Of a stretch of 64,000 bases of DNA, positions 5,258 through 30,311 are shown piece after piece. The DNA comes from Sulfolobus sp. E5-1-F (GTDB lineage: Archaea; Thermoproteota; Thermoprotei_A; Sulfolobales; Sulfolobaceae). Each line of letters opens with the position of its first letter. The stretch's first letter is position 1. Location: NCBI RefSeq assembly GCF_009601705.1, contig NZ_CP045687.1:2392001-2456000 (forward strand), given 5' to 3'. The position numbers and the translations under genes are program-made. The notes below the pieces were generated by a model. That model had not been told where the DNA came from and made no database searches. It saw only the letters and a list, made by a program, of their open reading frames with translations.

Positions 5258-5490
5258 ATGCCAGAAGTAATAGATCTGAGAGTAGAATTTACGGTAAATC
5301 CTATTGGACTAGATGAACAAAAGCCTAGATTCTCCTGGGTATTAATACCGGCAAAAAGAGGTAACTTACAAAAGGCTTATAGAATTATAGTAGGGAATTT
5401 AAATAGTATTTCTAAAGATATTGGTGATGTTTGGGATTCCGGAATTGTTCAATCTGATAACAATATCATAAAATATCAAGGTCCTCCAGT
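5258..5490 (+). pseudogene. GH78 alpha-L-rhamnosidase, N-terminal remnant
   Basis: About 78 codons from an ATG at 5258 match the start of GH78 alpha-L-rhamnosidases: the opening block ending in KPRFSWVL and the later block ending in KYQGPPV are typical of the N-terminal domain. The frame then enters the end of the IS200/IS605 element at about 5491 and becomes meaningless, although it stays open to 5668. The matching C-terminus lies on the other side of the element (7201-7623). About 650-700 residues, including the catalytic (alpha/alpha)6 barrel, are missing, so this is not a simple insertion. The gene must be inactive. It would have removed terminal L-rhamnose from glycans. Confidence 0.75.
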
Positions 5491-5650
5491 GAACTACTCC
5501 GCCCTTGCGGACGGAGCATCCCCACCTCACGATGAGGATTTCCTGCTTCTTCCGGGAAACTTGCTATACACTCCCTCTGAGAAGGGAATGTATAGTAGAG
5601 GTTTCCCGTCCACAGGCACTAAGGGCAGTCCCGACCCCGCACAAAGAATA
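5491..5650 (-). ncRNA. Probable omega (right-end) RNA region of tnpB
   Basis: In characterised IS200/IS605 elements, the 3' end of tnpB plus the right end gives a guide RNA (omegaRNA/reRNA) bound by TnpB, with the guide taken from DNA just outside the right end. Here the equivalent is the minus-strand segment from the last tnpB codons to the hairpin at 5497-5516. The guide would read into the GH78 remnant below 5490. This assignment is by position and family knowledge. Transcript ends cannot be seen. Confidence 0.4.
5497..5516 (-). repeat. Right-end subterminal hairpin of the IS200/IS605 element
   Basis: CTCCG (5497-5501) pairs with CGGAG (5512-5516), followed by one C-A mismatch and a CC/GG pair closing a 4-nt loop TTGC. 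An imperfect hairpin with an internal mismatch near the end is the usual substrate of Y1 transposases. Confidence 0.6.
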
Positions 5651-6732
5651 TTTAGAGAAGCATTATAATCACGATCTGCCACCCAACCACACTTAGGGCA
5701 AACAAATGTTCTGTCAGCAAGAGTAAGGTCGTTTCTCACATAACCACATCTCGCACACATCCTTGACGTGTTCCTTGGGTCTACCTTCACCACCCTCCTA
5801 CCAGCTCTTTCAGCCTTGTAGGAGAGGTGATGAAGGAAGAGGGAGAAGTTTGAGTGAAGAATATGCTTCCTAAGGGTCTTGCTTTTTGGTCTCTCTACCA
5901 TTTGTTTAGTTTCCAGATCTTCAACGTAAATCTCGTCATATTGTTCCACTAGCCATGTGGTTATCTTGTGTATGTAATCGTTCATAAAGTTCTTGGCGTG
6001 TTCGTGAAGTTTTGCGAGCTTAACCCTAGTCTTTTCATAGTTTTTAGAACCTTTCTTTTTCCTAGATAATATTCGTTGGACGAGGCGTATTTTCTTCTCG
6101 ATCTTGTCGAACACTTTTGGATTTTCTATAACAATACCATCTGATGTTGTAACTAGTTTCTCAACACCAACGTCAACACCTACTCTCCTACCGTTACTTG
6201 GTAATGGTTTCTTTTCAACCTCAATCTGGAATATGGCATACCAGCCAGTAACATTTTTCACTATAAGCACTCCCTTCACTCTCCCTTCTAAAGGTCTGTG
6301 AAAGAGCACCTTTACGGAACCTATCTTTGAGAGAATTAGCTTATCTCCCTCAACCTTGAAGCCAGATTGGTTGTAGTTTATGAACTTGAGGATCTTCTTA
6401 TATCTGAGCTTACCGACTTTCTTTCCTTTCTTCTTGAGTTCGTGAAGTGCTCTAATATTATACCATAATACATTGTTTACCATTTGGAGAGCCTTTGAGT
6501 ACACTAGATCCTTTCCCTCAACTTTCAAGTCCTTGATCATTGCTTGGGTGTCACTTGGGGTTATCTTCTTTCCCTCTCTTCTCGCTTTCGTAATAACGTC
6601 TAATAGCGCGTTGTAAACTTTTGCTTCAACTTGCATTACCTTGAGGAGTTTTTCCTCTACTTCTTTAGACGGGTAAATCTTGTACTTGAAGGATAGTTGT
6701 ACTACATCACTCTTTTCCTTGGCTCTCCACAT
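5527..6732 (-). CDS. tnpB: TnpB, RNA-guided nuclease of an IS200/IS605 element
   Basis: This 401-residue TnpB (OrfB) is the ancestor-type of Cas12 nucleases. It uses an omegaRNA guide to cut DNA next to a short target-adjacent motif and helps the element persist. The RuvC acidic triad is visible: Asp in GVDVGVEKL (about residue 190), Glu in YVEDLETKQ (about 272) and Asp in DRDYNAS (about 358). So is the four-cysteine zinc finger, CARCG and CPKCG, in between. The N-terminal OrfB helix-turn-helix region (LSFKYKIYPSKE) is present. The length is normal for full TnpB, so it is probably active. It starts at an ATG inside the end of tnpA, which implies coupled translation. It is mobile-element DNA and unrelated to the flanking sugar genes. 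Confidence 0.93.
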   Translation of the reverse strand: MWRAKEKSDVVQLSFKYKIYPSKEVEEKLLKVMQVEAKVYNALLDVITKARREGKKITPSDTQAMIKDLKVEGKDLVYSKALQMVNNVLWYNIRALHELKKKGKKVGKLRYKKILKFINYNQSGFKVEGDKLILSKIGSVKVLFHRPLEGRVKGVLIVKNVTGWYAIFQIEVEKKPLPSNGRRVGVDVGVEKLVTTSDGIVIENPKVFDKIEKKIRLVQRILSRKKKGSKNYEKTRVKLAKLHEHAKNFMNDYIHKITTWLVEQYDEIYVEDLETKQMVERPKSKTLRKHILHSNFSLFLHHLSYKAERAGRRVVKVDPRNTSRMCARCGYVRNDLTLADRTFVCPKCGWVADRDYNASLNILCAGSGLPLVPVDGKPLLYIPFSEGVYSKFPGRSRKSSS

Positions 6733-7108
6733 AGTTCTTCAGAACCTCTAACGTAACTTGTCCGCTAGTTGCTAAAAAGTAGGATGGGGACCATAGATGC
6801 CCTTTCCATAACTTCTCCTTAACTTGTGGAAATTTTCTCTGTATCTCCCTTGAGGTTATTGTCTTTATAGCGTTTATGTACCTTGGTATGTTAAGGGTTG
6901 GTTTAGCCTTGAATAACATGTGGAAGTGATCCTTGTCAACGCTAATGTCTATAACTTTGAATGTTTTGCTTATTTCAAGAATTGTTTCTTTCAAGAAATT
7001 TATGATCTCCTCATTGTCGAACACTTTCCTGCGGTACTTCACTACTTGGACATAGTGGTAGTAAAGCACGTAAACTGAATGTGCACTTCTGTCCAATCTG
7101 TACCGCAT
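6707..7108 (-). CDS. tnpA: TnpA, Y1 HUH transposase of an IS200/IS605 element
   Basis: This 133-residue single-strand DNA transposase carries out peel-and-paste excision and insertion at the hairpin ends. The HUH metal motif is present as DHFHML (His-Phe-His) and the nucleophilic tyrosine as KNYVESQ near the C-terminus, about residue 127. The length is standard for IS200/IS605 TnpA. It begins with an ATG at 7108, and its end overlaps tnpB by 26 nt. Both the catalytic residues and the flanking hairpins look intact, so the element may still be mobile. Confidence 0.93.
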   Translation of the reverse strand: MRYRLDRSAHSVYVLYYHYVQVVKYRRKVFDNEEIINFLKETILEISKTFKVIDISVDKDHFHMLFKAKPTLNIPRYINAIKTITSREIQRKFPQVKEKLWKGHLWSPSYFLATSGQVTLEVLKNYVESQGKE

Positions 7109-7167
7109 AGTTACATGTATTTTTCAAAAACTATAAAAATCTTTCTATAAGGTGGCTATCCATCCGG

Positions 7168-7187
7168 AAGGGGACTTTCGCCCCCTT
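7168..7187 (-). repeat. Left-end subterminal hairpin of the IS200/IS605 element
   Basis: AAGGGG (7168-7173) can pair with CCCCTT (7182-7187) across an 8-nt loop. A competing pairing exists between CCCCCTTAAC (7181-7190) and the GTTAAAGAGGGGG run from 7201. The GC-rich hairpin lies between tnpA and the resumption of GH78 coding sequence, as expected for the left end. Confidence 0.5.
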
Positions 7188-7200
7188 AACCCCCCATAAA

Positions 7201-7623
7201 GTTAAAGAGGGGGCTACAACACTTTGGGAGAGGTGGGAGAAGCTTACTGGAAGGGACATGAATTCTCATAATCATCACATGTTCGGTAGTGTTGATCATT
7301 GGATTTATAAGTACGTTGCAGGATTAGAAGTCTTGGAACCGGGATTTAAGAAAGTTTTGATAAAGCCAAGGTTATTTAAGAGGCTTAGCAATGCTTCGGC
7401 ATCTGTGAGAAGCATTAGGGGATTAGTTTCTGTAGAGTGGGAGTTTAGGAATAATGTGTTTAAACTCAAAGCTACAGTCCCCTCCTTCGCTGAGATTCAC
7501 TTACCTAAAATTAGTGAGAAATCTCCGGGAATTCTCTCAATTAAGGAGGAGTCTAATTGGGTAATCGTTGAGGTTAGCGGTGGTAACTATAATTTTGAAA
7601 TAAGGAGTGATAAAAGTAGTTAA
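7201..7623 (+). pseudogene. GH78 alpha-L-rhamnosidase, C-terminal remnant
   Basis: In frame from 7201, codons read V-K-E-G-A-T-T-L-W-E-R-W-E, the conserved block that ends the catalytic barrel of GH78. This is followed by HNHHMFGSVDHWIYKYVAGL and a C-terminal beta-sandwich ending at 7623. About 140 residues remain. An internal ATG at 7258 could be a start only if the remnant were expressed, but no promoter is visible because the IS end lies directly upstream. Together with 5258-5490 it marks one former gene of roughly 850-900 codons. Confidence 0.75.
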
Positions 7624-8220: not shown

Positions 8221-10419
8221 ATGAGAAAAGTAGGCAACTTAAATGTAGAAATAGAATTTATCACAGATAATATTGTTAGAATTTTGTATTATTATAGAAG
8301 GGAAGATTTTGTAGATAGTAGTTTAGTCGTATTACCTAACTTAGAGAAGATAGGTTTGAAAAGTGAAAATATTAGCTCATCTACACTCTCTTTCTCGAGT
8401 AAATCCCTCACTATAGATATAAACACCTCTAATGAAGAGTTAGTAATAAGGAATAGTAATGGGGAAATTGTAGTAAAAGAGAAGAGAAGGGATTTAAAGT
8501 TTAACGATGAGTTGTCCACTTACAACGTTATGCAAGAATTTGAGTTGAGTGAGGGTGAAAGATTGTATGGTTTAGGGCAACATGCAGGAGGAAATGGTTT
8601 AGGTCAATCTTCTGCCTATAGTTTGGACTATAATGGCCTTTCGATAACACTATCTCAGAGAAACACTGACATTGGAATTCCTTTCTTAGTTTCTAGTAAA
8701 GGTTATGGGATACTGTGGGATAACTATTCCCTTGCTTCAATAAGTCTTAAGAGGAACAAATTGAAGGTTTGGTTTGAAGCCGGTAAAAAGATAGATTATT
8801 ACGTGATTTACGGTAATTCTATAGATGATGTGATAAGAGGTTATAGAAGGTTGACCGGAGATGCTCCTCTCTTATCTAAATGGGCATATGGATATTGGCA
8901 GAGTAAAGAGAGATATAAATCGCAAGATGAGTTAGTAGGTGTAGTTAAGGAGTTTAGGGAAAAAGAGATACCTCTAGATGTAATAGTGTTAGACTGGAGA
9001 TATTGGGGAAAGTATGGTTGGAACGCTTTCCAATTTGATGAGACTGACTTTCCAAAACCTAATGAGATGGTTGAAAGAATTCATGAAATGAAAGCCAAGT
9101 TAGCAATATCAATATGGCCCACATTTGGAAAGGAAACCGAAGTTTTCAAGGATATGGAGAGCAAAGGATGCATAATCCAAGGGACTACTGCATTTAATCC
9201 TTTTAAGTATGAATGTAGGGAGCTCTTTTGGAGTTACGTTAAGAGATTTTACGATATAGGGGTAGACGCTTATTGGCTTGATGCCTCAGAGCCCGAAACC
9301 GGTCTTGGTTTAGTCTTCTTTTCTCCAATTCATGATGCGGACTTAGGAATTGGAAAAGGGTATGAGTACGTGAACGCATATTCGTTAATGGAAACTAAGG
9401 CTGTATATGAGGGACAAAGGAGAATTAGCAACAAAAGGGTTGTAATATTGACTAGATCTGCCTTTGCCGGTCAACAGAGACATTCTGCAATTAGTTGGTC
9501 TGGTGATGTATTGGGTGATTGGGCTACGTTGAGAGCTCAAATACCAGCTGGGCTTAACTTTTCAATTTCTGGCTTACCCTATTGGACTACTGACACCGGT
9601 GGTTTCTTCTCTGGAAATCCAGAAACTAAGGCATATGCTGAGATTTTCGTTAGGTGGTTCCAATGGAGTACATTCTGCCCTATCCTTAGAGTTCACGGCA
9701 CAATATTCCCTAAAGAGCCTTGGAGATTTCCGGGTGAATATCAAGACGTTATCCTTAAGTATATAAGGTTGAGATACAAATTACTGCCTTATATTTATTC
9801 ATTAGCGTGGATGACATACGGTAATGGATATACAATTATGAGACCATTAATTATGGATTTTAGGAATGATCAAAACGTTTACGATCTTGATGATCAATAC
9901 ATGTTTGGTCCCTACATAATGGTGTCCCCAGTTACTTTGCCGAGTATCAAGGAGAAAGAAGTTTACTTACCCTCTAGCGAGTACTGGTATGATTTCTGGA
10001 CAGGTAAGAAGTTTGAAGGAGGGAGGACAGTAAACGTAAAGATAACGTTAGATACGATTCCCTTATTTGTAAGAAGTGGTGCTATTTTACCATTATTAGG
10101 AAAAAACGTAAATAACGCTGAGGAGGATTGGGATGTAATTGAGCTAAGGGTTTTCCCAGATAAGGACGGCTATTTCGAATTATACGACGACGATGGGGTT
10201 ACGTATGATTACGAAAAGGGTAAGTATTATATAATACCAATTACTTGGGATGAGAATAAGCAGGAGCTCATTATAGGAAAGAAAAGAGGAGAGTTAGAAA
10301 TGGGTAAGAAAATAATTAAGATAATCTGGGTTGGGGAGGGTAAGGGTATTGGTTACACTAAGCCAGACGTTGAAGTAGAGTATGATGGTAAGGAAAGTAT
10401 TACGATGAAGAAACCTTAG
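8221..10419 (+). CDS. xylS: Alpha-xylosidase XylS, glycoside hydrolase family 31
   Basis: This 732-residue GH31 enzyme is very close in length and neighbourhood to the characterised S. solfataricus XylS, which releases alpha-1,6-xylose from isoprimeverose and xyloglucan oligosaccharides. The N-terminal beta-sandwich (about 1-220) precedes the TIM barrel. The catalytic nucleophile is Asp354 in YWLDASEPE and the acid/base is Asp429 in WSGDVLGDW. The WRYWGKYGWNAFQFDE region contributes to the subsite. C-terminal beta domains follow from about residue 580. It has its own TATA box and probably forms a transcription unit with the unknown protein 33 bp downstream. In a cytoplasmic route it would work with LacS on xyloglucan fragments, as reported for the S. 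solfataricus pair. Confidence 0.94.
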   Translation: MRKVGNLNVEIEFITDNIVRILYYYRREDFVDSSLVVLPNLEKIGLKSENISSSTLSFSSKSLTIDINTSNEELVIRNSNGEIVVKEKRRDLKFNDELSTYNVMQEFELSEGERLYGLGQHAGGNGLGQSSAYSLDYNGLSITLSQRNTDIGIPFLVSSKGYGILWDNYSLASISLKRNKLKVWFEAGKKIDYYVIYGNSIDDVIRGYRRLTGDAPLLSKWAYGYWQSKERYKSQDELVGVVKEFREKEIPLDVIVLDWRYWGKYGWNAFQFDETDFPKPNEMVERIHEMKAKLAISIWPTFGKETEVFKDMESKGCIIQGTTAFNPFKYECRELFWSYVKRFYDIGVDAYWLDASEPETGLGLVFFSPIHDADLGIGKGYEYVNAYSLMETKAVYEGQRRISNKRVVILTRSAFAGQQRHSAISWSGDVLGDWATLRAQIPAGLNFSISGLPYWTTDTGGFFSGNPETKAYAEIFVRWFQWSTFCPILRVHGTIFPKEPWRFPGEYQDVILKYIRLRYKLLPYIYSLAWMTYGNGYTIMRPLIMDFRNDQNVYDLDDQYMFGPYIMVSPVTLPSIKEKEVYLPSSEYWYDFWTGKKFEGGRTVNVKITLDTIPLFVRSGAILPLLGKNVNNAEEDWDVIELRVFPDKDGYFELYDDDGVTYDYEKGKYYIIPITWDENKQELIIGKKRGELEMGKKIIKIIWVGEGKGIGYTKPDVEVEYDGKESITMKKP

Positions 10420-10452: not shown

Positions 10453-12231
10453 ATGATGGAATTTAAATTAGTGGTTTACGTTACGGCTCCAACTTTGGGA
10501 AGTCTAAACGAGGAAAGAACTAAGAAGCTTATTGAAGAACTTAAAGAGTTAGGAGTAGAGAAAGTCTATCTAGAAAATTATAGAGATGGGAAAGTGTTAG
10601 ATGTAAACATAATGACTAAGTTTAAAGAGATTTTTGAGAGGGAGTTCGAAGTTGCTGGAGGGATGGCAATTGGTACATGGGGTGAGGGATGGGGTGAAAT
10701 GGAAAATTTTGGTTTTAAAGTTGCGTGTATTGCAGATGAAAGAAATAGAGAGATGGTGAAGAACGTAGTTGAGGAGCAAGCTAAGGTGTTTGATGAGATA
10801 ATAATTGACGACTTCTGGGCTAATTGGTGCCATTCTGAAAAGGATGTAAAGTTGTTTAACTCAATGTATGGGTTAAATTTTACTAAAGATACATTGGTTA
10901 AAATGTTGAGGGATCCTGTCATATCGCGTTTATGGTGTGAGTACTCTTCGTCTCTAGTTTATAACGTCTCAAGAGATTACGTTGTAGAGCCAGCTAAAAA
11001 GGTCAATGGAAAAGTTAGAATAACTCTAAAGGTTGCTGAGTGGAGAGAGGACTTCTATCATAGGGGGCTTAAATTAGATAAGCTAGCCGAAATCTTTGAT
11101 AACATTTACGTTGGAACTGAGGCTAGGGAATATACAGCAAGATATGGTTCGCTATATATAGTTGATTACGTTAAGGGTATAGTTGGTGATAAATTAAAGG
11201 GTGTATGGTTTGATACATTTATAGGTGGAGAAGGTGGTGATTACGGTAGTTTTAAAACATATTTCCAGCAATTTGTCTTAAGTGCGTTTGGTCTCACGGA
11301 GGAAATTACACTGTTTGCAGCGGGAGATATTTTAGATCCAGAGAGAAAGCATTTGTTTGAGGGTATTAAGGAAAATAAGGCAAAGGTACAAGAATGGAGG
11401 AGAAACATTAGAGAATACAGCTCTATGGGTTTGAAGAGAATACCGCTCCAACACTTCATGGCTCAAAGAGTTGATAAATATGTAGAAGATCACTTGGGAA
11501 TAATGGGTATACCGTTAGAGGTTTCTAGCAGTGTAAATCCAGGTGATATAGTGCTCATAACTGAGTCAGATATTTACCATTTGGACATTATGGACTTACT
11601 TAATAAGGGAGTTAGCTTAATGTTTACGGCAAGTGCAGCTAAAAAGCTTATTGAGATTCTAGGGGATGTTGCACTAAAGGTTCTTGGTGTAAATAACGTG
11701 ATTTACGATAATGTTATTGCTAACGCATTAACTAGGGATGGGAAAGTATTCTATTGGTCATACTACAAAAGGCAATCCAATTTCCCTGTTGGGCCCATAT
11801 TTTCCCTAAATGGTGCATCACCAATCCTTTACGCTTATGATGGTGTGGAGTTTTATCCAGTAGTCTTTCAGAATACGTATTCTAACGGAAGAGTTTATGT
11901 TATATCGCTTACCACTTACTTACCGTATCTGATTTCAGAATTCTATCCAGGTATTGCAAGGCAGATCATTAGGGACATTGTCGGAGATCACATAGGTATA
12001 AAGGCTATTGCAACTTACCCCTTCTTATTTTCTTTAATAGTTAAAAGGGATGGAGTGGTAACTGTATTAAATTTAAATGACTTCCCAATTAGGCTAACGT
12101 TAAGTATTGATCCCAAAAGGTATAAAATAAGTAACGTACAAGACATGAAAGTATTACAGTCTAATGAAAATGAGATTAGGATAAGATTAAAAGAAAACTC
12201 ATTTGGTGTAGTGAGACTTGAGAAAGTTTAA
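10453..12231 (+). CDS. Unrecognised large protein, glycoside-hydrolase-like architecture, downstream of xylS
   Basis: I do not recognise the family of this 592-residue protein. What can be seen: an N-terminal region (about 1-330) with alternating strands and helices, as in a TIM barrel, containing acidic clusters in positions that could be catalytic ([10 protein letters not shown] at 116-125, [34 protein letters not shown]). A middle alpha/beta part ([20 protein letters not shown] onward) resembles the Rossmann-like domain of GH42-type enzymes. A C-terminal beta-rich domain ends the chain. There is no signal peptide or membrane segment. It follows xylS by 33 bp, with a TATA-like TTTTTAATTT at about 10421, and its stop codon interlocks with that of lacS. 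Context suggests a cytoplasmic glycosidase or sugar-binding enzyme for xyloglucan-type oligosaccharides. This is inference. Confidence 0.75.
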
Positions 12232-13697
12232 TGCCTTAATGGTTTTACTGGAGGTACGCTGTTTAAGTGTTCTATTTCATCAGTTATTCCACCATTTGTG
12301 GCTATTTCCTTGTATACGAGGGCTGAAGGTCTCCAGTATAGTCTTTTAGTATTGTAATCAACTTTTAACAAACCAAATCTCATAGAGAAGCCTGAAGCCC
12401 ATTCGTAATTATCAGCCAAAGACCAATGTAAATACCCTCTAACATCGGCACCACTATTTATTGCTCTGTGAACTTGATAAACATGAGATACTAAGTAATA
12501 GGGCCTTTGATAATCCGCATCATCTGCAATACCGTTTTCAGTAACATACATATAGAGATGATATCTATTCCAGTATTTTGTCAGAACATCGTATAGTCCT
12601 TCTGGGAAGAACTCCCAGCCGAAATCACTGGTTGGTAGTCCCGCTAAGCTCACAGAATTTCTCTCACACCCATGACCGTAACCTCCTAGACTAACATATC
12701 CTTTTTCAGTCTTCTTAACTACAGTCCTAGTGTAATAATTGACGCCAATCCAATCCAATCTACTCTTTAGATCATCCCTTACGACCTTCTCATTTCCTCT
12801 GTTGATTTCACCCTTAATTATTGCATCAAAAAATCCCCATCTATTATCGTATTCAGCCATTTCCACAGCTTCCATATCTTTTTCAGTTAAAGGTTGGAAT
12901 GAACTATTTGCGTAGATTATTCCAACTGGTTTTTTAGTAACACTTTTTATTGCGTCATATGCCCTTGCGTGAGCTTGAATAATGTTGTACATTGCCTTAC
13001 GGGAAAGTTCAAAGCTTAGGTACCCTGGAGGAAAACCGGACTTAACACCAACGTATCCTAAACCTCCAACAACGTTTGGCTCATTCATTGTCGAATATTC
13101 ATCTACCAAGTCATCGAATTTCCAAGCTATATAGGCTGAGAACCTGGCGAACTCGTAAACTGTCCTAGTACTTAGCCAACCAGTTGGACCAGTTAAATCT
13201 CCTCTTCTTACTCTAATTGGGTCATGTAACCATAGAGGTAATGGCCAATGGTACATGTTTAATATAAAGTAAAGTCCTCTACTTTTAAGGTCATTAAATA
13301 TTTCCCTATAGTGGTTTAACGCGTTTTTGTTAGCATATTCGTCGAGTCTTTTTAACTCGTTTTCGTTAATCTCAACCTCTATGACATCTTGCTTTGATTC
13401 ATCTAAGTTTTGTGGTTTTGGTAATGGATTGGGAAATATTCTAGACCATTCTACGTTCAATCTAGCTATTTTTAATCCCATTTTTTGAGCATTGTCATGG
13501 AATGTCTTATAGTTTCCCCAATATCCTGGCCCATTCTCAGGAAAATCTCCACTCACTAATCCCGCTGCGATATTTTCTGGATCGTGAACCCATTTATACC
13601 AGTCTGTATTTGGATCTTCTGACCCTGGGGATCCCATTTCTGATTGAAATCCAGCTTGAGACCAACCAAACCTAAAGCTCTTTGGAAACTGGTACAT
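12228..13697 (-). CDS. lacS: Beta-glycosidase LacS, glycoside hydrolase family 1
   Basis: This 489-residue GH1 enzyme is nearly identical to the S. solfataricus LacS (beta-galactosidase/beta-glucosidase/beta-fucosidase), with scattered substitutions from the first residues onward (MYQFPKSF). The acid/base Glu206 in TMNEPN and the nucleophile Glu387 in YVTENG are both present. GH1 signatures such as the N-terminal [11 protein letters not shown] and the aglycone-site WSLADNYEW are intact. The length is exactly that of the known enzyme. It is cytoplasmic, releases glucose or galactose from beta-linked oligosaccharides, and is transcribed towards xylS. The last 4 bp (TTAA) serve as stop codons for both convergent genes. 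The MFS gene lies 21 bp upstream on the same strand, so co-transcription is possible. Confidence 0.97.
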
Positions 13698-28529: not shown

Positions 28530-30311
28530 TTAAACTCTCATTAGACAGCCCGACTTAGCCTTAACTACTCCTTGGCATAAGTCTATATCCTCTTTAACTT
28601 TAACGTTAAGTCTATATTCCTTATCCTCCCATGTGTGATTCAAAACTGCTATTAAACTATCTTCCTTTCCTTCAAGATACTGTATCTCAACACCAAAGTC
28701 TTGTGGTGGAAAGCTCTGTTCTATATTGGCCACTCTTGCAAGATAATTGTAAAGAGAAACGTAACGGCTATTCATTATCTCATTATTTGAAGATATTAAC
28801 TCTAGAGGTATTGTTGAGAGAATAGAATTACCCTTTCCTCTCTTAGCCATGAAAATTACACCATTGTTATCTTTATCGACTCCTATTACTTTAGCATCTT
28901 TTTCTTTAAATGAGTAGGTGTATAAATTAGATTGTCCTATATCGATTATATCATTATTTAATCTTATTCTTTCTGGTATCCTAACTCCCTTACTTCCTGC
29001 ATAATTATTGGGGATTACTCCAAAAAGTTCTTCCCACAAATGTGTGGCAGACAGATGCGTTAGAGTATATGTCGAGAAGTAGATAGTACTCCCATTTTCA
29101 ACTACCTCTAATAATTTCCTCCACGTTGACGTAAGTAGCCTAGTAATGGAGGGTATTATTAACAATTTATAATTTGATAAATTTTCATTCTCCCTTGCAA
29201 ATGTGACTTGAATATTGGATAGTCTAGCGAACGTGAAAGCTTGATTTAACACCTTAGCGAAATCCCACCTTCTATTTTGTTCAGAAACAAACTGAAAATC
29301 CTTGTAAAACCACGAGGGTACCAGTATTGCGGAGTCCCTTTTATGCACTTTATAAGATGATAGTTCAATGTTCTTTATTTTACTACTGAAATCCTTTACT
29401 ACTCTGGCAGCAATTTTTTCACTTCCATCTTGTCTTATTACTCCAAAGGTTAATTCGTGAGGTTCCCATAGATATGGTTCATCACTCTCTCTCGGGAAGT
29501 CAGAAAAACACCATATCAATGCGCCATCGGCACCATAGACTAACGCACCTCTCAGTATTAATCCTATAAACTTAGCGTGACTCTCTTCTGAATACAATGA
29601 CGTTGGAAATCCAAACTCCTCTAGAATTACCGGCAATCCCGAACTTCTATCGTATTCCAGAATCATGAAGTATTGAAATGAATGTCTAATTGGATCTTGA
29701 TCATACAGATAAATATGTGGAGAAGCGTAATCTACAATTCCCTTAACGTTTTCTGGTTTTAAGAAATTGTGGGAAAATGGAGAAACATTATCTCCAACTG
29801 AAACTACGTGTTGGTCATCAATCCCTTTAATGTAACTATACAATTCCTTAAGCCATTTGAAGAAGACATTATCATTTTCTGGTACTTTCACCAATGAGAT
29901 TTCATTTGTTAGTACCCATCCCATTATCGCGTTACTTCGCTTAAAACTATTAACAACATCTTCTATAAACCTCTTAGTTTGTTCAATCTTATCGTAAATT
30001 GTATTATCACTATCCCATGGTATATTCCAGTTCTTTCCGCTCATATGACCTACAATTAAGGTTAACAGAACCTTTATGGAATGTTTTTCCGCCTCCTCAA
30101 GAAATCTCTCTATTTTACCTTTACAATCTTGCTTTAGATTACCTTGTTGATCTGCGCAATCCTCATCCAGTATGAATGCCCTAATGGTGTTTATCCCCAG
30201 TTGGCTCATTAATTCAAAATCTCTTCTAATTTCTTCAATTTCAAACTTACTCCACATCTTTATATTTGATATCCTAGGCCAATAATTAAAGCCTAAGATT
30301 AACCTTTTCAT
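28530..30311 (-). CDS. GH5-like beta-mannanase/beta-mannosidase
   Basis: This 593-residue protein starts with a clan-A TIM barrel. FNYWPRISNIKMW and FELMSQLGINTIRAF are typical of GH5-type mannanases and related enzymes. The acid/base is Glu in WVLTNEIS (about residue 139) and the nucleophile is Glu in PVILEEFGFPTS (about 228). After the barrel an alpha/beta domain with GSTIYFSTYTL and a C-terminal beta domain follow, a GH42-like layout also seen in archaeal beta-mannosidases. No signal peptide, so it is probably cytoplasmic. It is divergent from the alpha-mannosidase gene, and both seem to read from one shared TATA box. Beta-mannan fragments are the likely substrate. Confidence 0.8.
   Translation of the reverse strand: MKRLILGFNYWPRISNIKMWSKFEIEEIRRDFELMSQLGINTIRAFILDEDCADQQGNLKQDCKGKIERFLEEAEKHSIKVLLTLIVGHMSGKNWNIPWDSDNTIYDKIEQTKRFIEDVVNSFKRSNAIMGWVLTNEISLVKVPENDNVFFKWLKELYSYIKGIDDQHVVSVGDNVSPFSHNFLKPENVKGIVDYASPHIYLYDQDPIRHSFQYFMILEYDRSSGLPVILEEFGFPTSLYSEESHAKFIGLILRGALVYGADGALIWCFSDFPRESDEPYLWEPHELTFGVIRQDGSEKIAARVVKDFSSKIKNIELSSYKVHKRDSAILVPSWFYKDFQFVSEQNRRWDFAKVLNQAFTFARLSNIQVTFARENENLSNYKLLIIPSITRLLTSTWRKLLEVVENGSTIYFSTYTLTHLSATHLWEELFGVIPNNYAGSKGVRIPERIRLNNDIIDIGQSNLYTYSFKEKDAKVIGVDKDNNGVIFMAKRGKGNSILSTIPLELISSNNEIMNSRYVSLYNYLARVANIEQSFPPQDFGVEIQYLEGKEDSLIAVLNHTWEDKEYRLNVKVKEDIDLCQGVVKAKSGCLMRV

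Follow-up and report, generated by a model that had tools for sequence, protein, structure and literature searches.

The gene between xylS and lacS

The window, i.e. the whole stretch of 64,000 nucleotides that was analysed (Sulfolobus sp. E5-1-F, contig NZ_CP045687.1, positions 2,392,001 to 2,456,000), carries a gene for a protein of 592 residues, P0001, that lies between xylS and lacS. The latter two rank among the best-known archaeal glycosidase genes; the gene between them had neither a family nor an assigned function in the sources that we searched. In window coordinates the three genes are:

8221–10419, plus strand: xylS, GH31 alpha-xylosidase (Pfam GH31; stop codon TAG), upstream of and co-directional with the candidate gene
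10453–12231, plus strand: candidate glycoside hydrolase gene encoding P0001 (592 aa, ATG start; homologs and purifying selection)
12228–13697, minus strand: lacS, GH1 beta-galactosidase (Pfam GH1), convergent with the candidate gene

A preliminary description of this DNA had reported an ATG-initiated reading frame of 592 residues at 10453–12231 on the plus strand, 33 bp after xylS. We found it as described: xylS ends with its stop codon at 10419, and the 33-bp gap separates two genes on one strand. Also the proposed identities of the neighbours were borne out, by Pfam for both genes and additionally by NCBIfam for the lacS product (BgaS, 875 bits over cut-off). The candidate gene had furthermore been called interlocked with lacS. 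The 3' ends of both genes do overlap by 4 bp; however, since this overlap is tail to tail, the genes are convergent and share no operon, and only xylS is co-directional.

The candidate gene is real and under purifying selection. In a chance control for the 592-aa reading frame, open stretches of at least 300 codons occurred in 0 of 1200 shuffled frames. Comparison with the orthologs of two congeners (protein identity 87% and 84%) provided dN/dS values of 0.10 and 0.06. For three more congeners dS was either out of range (two cases) or saturated, with a dN/dS of 0.23 (one case).

The arrangement between xylS and lacS was found in 5 of the 7 genomes of the genus. In G003 and G005 XylS is encoded about 10 and 15 kb from the family gene; in both, a GH12 gene and an ABC transporter set of the peptide/sugar type flank the latter. 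A like transporter and GH12 lie near the family gene of HS-7 (G011). The transporter label is mostly due to sequence recognition, with the G005 binding protein alone being Pfam-checked (SBP_bac_5); as neighbours were Pfam-checked for picked proteins only, the neighbour counts are not exhaustive. Orthologs of XylS, defined by at least 50% identity (a cut chosen after the table had been seen), were present in 10 of 11 family-positive and in 2 of 49 family-negative genomes (Fisher p 9e-9). Counting by genus gave 3/4 versus 0/27 (p 9e-4), one genus being dominant. The exception to this association is HS-7; in G013 XylS and the family gene are both broken.

Another glycosidase gene of the window, for a GH78 alpha-L-rhamnosidase, is split (5258–7623) into an Ig_Rha78A_N piece and a Bac_rhamnosid_C piece, between which an IS200/IS605 element (Y1 transposase and TnpB/OrfB protein) is located. 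In G006 an intact GH78 reading frame of 883 aa is found upstream of xylS (L050 600–3248).

Distribution of the family and searches of domain databases

Relatives of P0001 at E <= 0.001 were detected in 11 of 60 near genomes. All seven genomes of the same genus (Saccharolobus) have a family member, and a profile search found one in 25 of 398 Thermoproteota genomes. Within the class of one distant member 5 of 201 genomes were positive, three of them being already among the 25. A scan of genome contigs returned 3 loci, all from Thermoproteota; it used exact short peptide patterns, such that bacterial or other archaeal relatives may exist. Neither 72,556 plasmid records nor the viral contigs contained a relative. 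From these proteins we built the family alignment A3 with 23 rows, and A1 with 11 members. The rows of A3 include a distant clade of only 20–27% identity (L033, L064, L065, L067, L037, L038). Two copies are broken:

L061 8188–9680 (G013) and L062 7677–9203 (G310): broken family members with frameshifts or stops, that of G013 in three pieces and that of G310 with internal stops

The loci of these two copies are rich in other glycosidases (GH31, GH38; GH1, GH3). A decayed second copy of the C-terminal part of the family, with six stops, is present at G006:C2 412688–413170 (L013). A distant member elsewhere adjoins a gene that matches GCE_fung, a model of fungal glucuronoyl esterases, in an archaeal genome (L063 2535–3791, E 3e-33).

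That no known family would fit P0001, as had been supposed, is in agreement with our domain searches. Pfam returned just DUF4738 (E 0.1, under the cut-off) and NCBIfam nothing close to any cut-off. None of the 11 A1 members and none of 6 further relatives exceeded a Pfam cut-off, and the latter did not exceed an NCBIfam cut-off either. In particular, the gathering cut-off of GHL6 (PF14871) was reached by 0 of 11 family members and 0 of the 6 further ones, the cut-offs of the GH42 models PF02449 and PF08532 were not reached by P0001, the A1 members or the 6 further relatives, and the family members gave no Pfam match to PF01120 (GH29). Among 41 relatives PF02449 produced weak local matches only, and the PF08532 match in the own genome belongs to another gene (window 29061–29282). 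Sequence searches of the PDB with P0001, A1 and A3 revealed no glycosidase at a usable E-value; even with E thresholds of 1, 10 and 10, respectively, they did not return the GH151 structure 6tvk. Literature searches on new archaeal GH families, GHL6, xylS/lacS and xyloglucan provided no paper on the protein of this family, nor did searches under SSO3020 or SSO3021, tags that we presumed for the ortholog in view of SSO3019 and SSO3022.

Several low-scoring matches were discarded. Thioredoxin matches (E 0.09–1.2) fell on an F-W-A-N-W-C stretch that forms a barrel strand and loop in the predicted model. A match of residues 371–483 to a PHROG tail protein (E 8e-4) and a PADLOC match of a family relative (E 0.02) were judged to be due to chance.

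The window encodes a further protein with a related domain, a 593-aa product at 28530–30311 on the minus strand with DUF4434 and a GH42M-like stretch slightly below the cut-off. It is possibly a GH5-type enzyme that carries a trimerisation domain. A protein scoring as GH5 and resembling it is encoded near the family member of HS-7 (L015 3983–5803).

Predicted fold and profile–profile homology

The AlphaFold2 model of full-length P0001, calculated from 4 input sequences, had a pLDDT of 73.9 and a pTM of 0.76 (pLDDT of the other four models 59–66). For the barrel alone a pLDDT of 80.4 and a pTM of 0.84 were obtained. The predicted layout agrees with the one that had been read from the sequence beforehand, i.e. 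a TIM barrel, a GH42-like alpha/beta middle part and a C-terminal beta domain:

10453–11421, plus strand: domain A, residues 1–323, (beta/alpha)8 barrel (barrel-only model; match to GH42 1kwg)
11422–12012, plus strand: domain B, residues about 324–520, GH42M-like alpha/beta (trimerisation) domain with approximate boundary (secondary structure; GH42/GH164 matches; hhalign)
12013–12228, plus strand: domain C, residues about 521–592, C-terminal beta domain (predicted secondary structure)

In the model the barrel strands comprise residues 5–10, 37–41, 66–72, 115–119, 189–194, 217–221, 248–254 and 284–288. Comparing the full model with the PDB yielded GH42 5e9a (Z 24.2, rmsd 4.7, 530 aligned residues), GH164 6t5o (Z 21.7, rmsd 4.6, 525 aligned) and GH151 6tvk (Z 19.6, rmsd 4.7, 530 aligned). 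The barrel alone matched GH42 1kwg (Z 24.2, rmsd 3.5, 308 aligned), Cwp19 (Z 23.4, rmsd 3.8, 284 aligned), PgaB (Z 22.5, rmsd 3.7, 302 aligned), GH164 (Z 21.7, rmsd 3.6, 293 aligned) and GH151 (Z 19.8, rmsd 4.0, 291 aligned). A shared fold is not sufficient to assign a function.

Profile–profile comparisons were carried out with hhalign against Thermoproteota proteins that contain GHL6 (PF14871) and GH42M domains, using a set of 22 rows and an alignment of 18 rows (A4). Since the printed E-values are uncalibrated, we relied on the scores. The score of A3 was 111.0 with the 22-row set (484 columns) and 109.9 with A4, the alignment extending through GH42M. As controls, 20 column shuffles of the 22-row set reached at most 25.9 and two reversals gave 19.7 and 18.4; sets of GH31, GH1, Gfo/Idh, amidohydrolase and ABC proteins reached at most 21.0. 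The full-length score against GH42 was 44.3. For the barrel alone we obtained 65.5 and 70.1 against GHL6 (30 shuffles <=21.9), 47.9 against GHL10 and 43.1 against GH42. GH29 was rejected as a homologous family, its scores of 18.8–20.0 being at null level. The A4 profile in turn finds 6tvk, the GH151 enzyme ALfuk2, over almost its whole length (E 2e-107). Judged from these profiles, which match well above the controls, the family is distantly homologous to GHL6/GH151-type glycosidases. The link to GH151 runs by profile–profile comparison via GHL6 only, direct sequence searches giving no match to 6tvk.

The matches to Cwp19 and PgaB, together with the GHL10 score, bear on a different type of chemistry within the same fold. 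P0001 could be an inverting hydrolase, a transglycosylase or a phosphorylase rather than a simple retaining enzyme, in which case the invariant DD motif D119/D120 would function as in barrels of the PgaB or Cwp19 type. We regard this as improbable, because the GHL6/GH151 profile match is clearly better and the GH42M-like domain aligns with GHL6/GH151 as well.

Candidate catalytic residues, proposed function and known systems

The residues that we consider for catalysis and for the Cys cluster are:

10726–10728, plus strand: C92, first Cys of the GH42-type four-Cys cluster (23/23 rows; Cys in 18/18 GHL6 rows)
10807–10809, plus strand: D119, last residue of strand 4 and predicted nucleophile (Asp in 23/23 rows)
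10828–10830, plus strand: C126, second Cys of the cluster (aligned to a Cys invariant in 18/18 GHL6 rows)
11119–11121, plus strand: E223, Glu in 23/23 rows, which would act as general acid/base from the end of strand 6
11212–11214, plus strand: D254, Asp in 23/23 rows and last residue of strand 7; either a rival catalytic residue or one that binds substrate

The acids at the barrel end, E41, D119, D120, E223 and D254, are invariant over the 23 rows down to 20% identity. The catalytic pair of GH42 is two Glu. An alternative assignment follows the GH-A-like retaining beta-glycosidases such as GH42 and GH164: D119 or D120 on strand 4 would be the acid/base and D254 on strand 7 the nucleophile. 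GH42 indeed leads the structural matches of the barrel and of the whole length, D119, D120 and D254 are all kept in 23/23 rows, and according to PMC7105311 the catalytic residues of GH164 are E160/E297, located on strands 4 and 7. However, the GH164 pair consists of two Glu where every family row has Asp, the profile score of GH42 is 44 versus 110 for GHL6, and D119 aligns to a nucleophile rather than to an acid/base. A GH-A-like mechanism is thus unlikely in our opinion.

The review PMC10154630 assigns the roles of nucleophile and acid/base in the GH151 enzyme ALfuk2 to D154 and E235, located at the ends of strands 4 and 6, respectively. The 6tvk construct has 689 residues versus 660 in the model numbering, such that D154 and E235 correspond to D183 and E264 as counted by hand. 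When A3 is aligned with A4, D119 shares the column of 6tvk D183, which is Asp in 18/18 GHL6 rows. E223 falls on the E235 (E264) column after realignment and two columns off in the Viterbi alignment. The spacing between D119 and E223 is 82–83 in six distant rows and 104–106 in the other 17, compared to 81 between D154 and E235. D120 and D254 are found at GHL6 columns without a conserved acid. GH151 also uses a His from the adjacent subunit (H503), in a region that gave no confident alignment with the family. A catalytic signature on strands 4 and 7 had been expected from the first reading; the conserved acids D119/D120 and D254 are there, but homology favours strands 4 and 6, so that D119 and E223 are the likelier pair.

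The GHL6 pattern C...D...C-x-C-x-x-C around strand 4 is complete in 9 of the 23 rows. The remaining 14 keep only C92, D119 and C126, having lost the third and fourth Cys of the cluster (C-x-C-x-x-C), and P0001 is one of them. W197 aligns with a Trp in 15/18 GHL6 rows. In GH42 the four-Cys cluster binds zinc. The Saccharolobus branch has lost two of the four Cys of the cluster, and the copies in G013 and G310 are broken; both observations would suit a homologue that has a structural or regulatory role but no catalytic one. Considering the acids E41, D119, D120, E223 and D254, which are invariant over 23 rows, and the dN/dS of 0.06–0.10, we deem such a role highly improbable.

The reading that we favour, with moderate confidence, is a new archaeal GH family in the GH42/GH151/GHL6 superfamily, whose members would be retaining exo-glycosidases of xyloglucan-type side chains, possibly alpha-L-fucosidases. 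Conservation of the family, its three-domain fold, the distant GHL6/GH151 homology and the Asp of strand 4 come from computation, the substrate and the mechanism we infer; P0001 probably helps to remove side sugars from plant cell-wall fragments. The enzyme would be a cytoplasmic homotrimer like GH42 enzymes and act by double displacement, in which D119 would attack the anomeric carbon and E223 would serve as the general acid/base. It may thereby remove the terminal sugar from imported plant-type oligosaccharides, alongside XylS and LacS. As the likeliest single target we may put forward, albeit with little weight, the alpha-L-fucosyl residue, or a similar one, that caps xyloglucan side chains. 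The earlier suggestion of a new glycosidase family is hence supported by fold and profile homology, the family still being a candidate.

In S. solfataricus, LacS and XylS are reported to act on xyloglucan oligosaccharides jointly with a GH29 fucosidase (PMC8037949, PMC8037382). GH29 fucosidases are encoded in 3 of the 7 genomes of the genus, the window's own genome having none. The fucA gene of G002 is split into frames of 81 and 426 codons, as PMC8037382 reports for S. solfataricus, and on this ground the genus is called Saccharolobus here. The family might therefore fill a fucosidase gap in the four other species or act on another sugar; in the three genomes where GH29 coexists with it a fucosidase role would be redundant. 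A narrower version of the favoured reading, a new archaeal family of alpha-L-fucosidase type with GH151 machinery that, in hot-spring Sulfolobales, carries out the Fuc step before Gal (LacS) and Xyl (XylS) within a cassette of three neighbouring genes for stripping xyloglucan side chains, and replaces GH29 where fucA is absent, is possible though doubtful. According to PMC8037382, strain PBL2025 lacks SSO3004–SSO3050, and the S. solfataricus ortholog should accordingly be missing too, which offers a ready genetic background.

A new GH family would account for a missing part of plant hemicellulose use by thermoacidophiles and would supply a thermostable enzyme. It would also show one fold shifting its catalytic residues, between strands 4 and 7 in GH42 and GH164 and strands 4 and 6 in GH151.

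Judging by sequence, the family would function in the manner of a GH151/GHL6 enzyme. We nevertheless set it apart from GH29, GH42, GH164, GHL6 and GH151, since for each of them the family failed a defining test. The nucleophile of GH29 is of the Asp type, and fucosylated xyloglucan is a possible common substrate with S. solfataricus fucA; however, GH29 has a null-level profile score and is absent from the window's genome. The GH42 beta-galactosidases and GH164 beta-mannosidases are the best whole-length structural matches and have a trimerisation-type middle domain, the predicted model of P0001 sharing the architecture of barrel, trimerisation and beta domain with GH42. In contrast, the family has Asp in 23/23 rows where those enzymes have the catalytic Glu of strands 4 and 7, and the GH42 profile score is far below that of GHL6. 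The Thermoproteota proteins with GHL6 and GH42M, which are themselves annotated as hypothetical, provide the best profile–profile match and have C92, D119, C126 and W197 in common with the family, whereas the family stays under Pfam detection and has lost two of the four Cys in 14/23 rows. From GH151 ALfuk2 it differs in the missing direct sequence match, in the register of E223, which shifts by two residues, and in its other conserved residues E41, D120, K193, R225 and D254. The two share a layout of three domains, with an Asp where strand 4 ends and a Glu close to the end of strand 6, and the Asp–Glu spacing is similar, 81 in ALfuk2 versus 82–83 in the distant family members.
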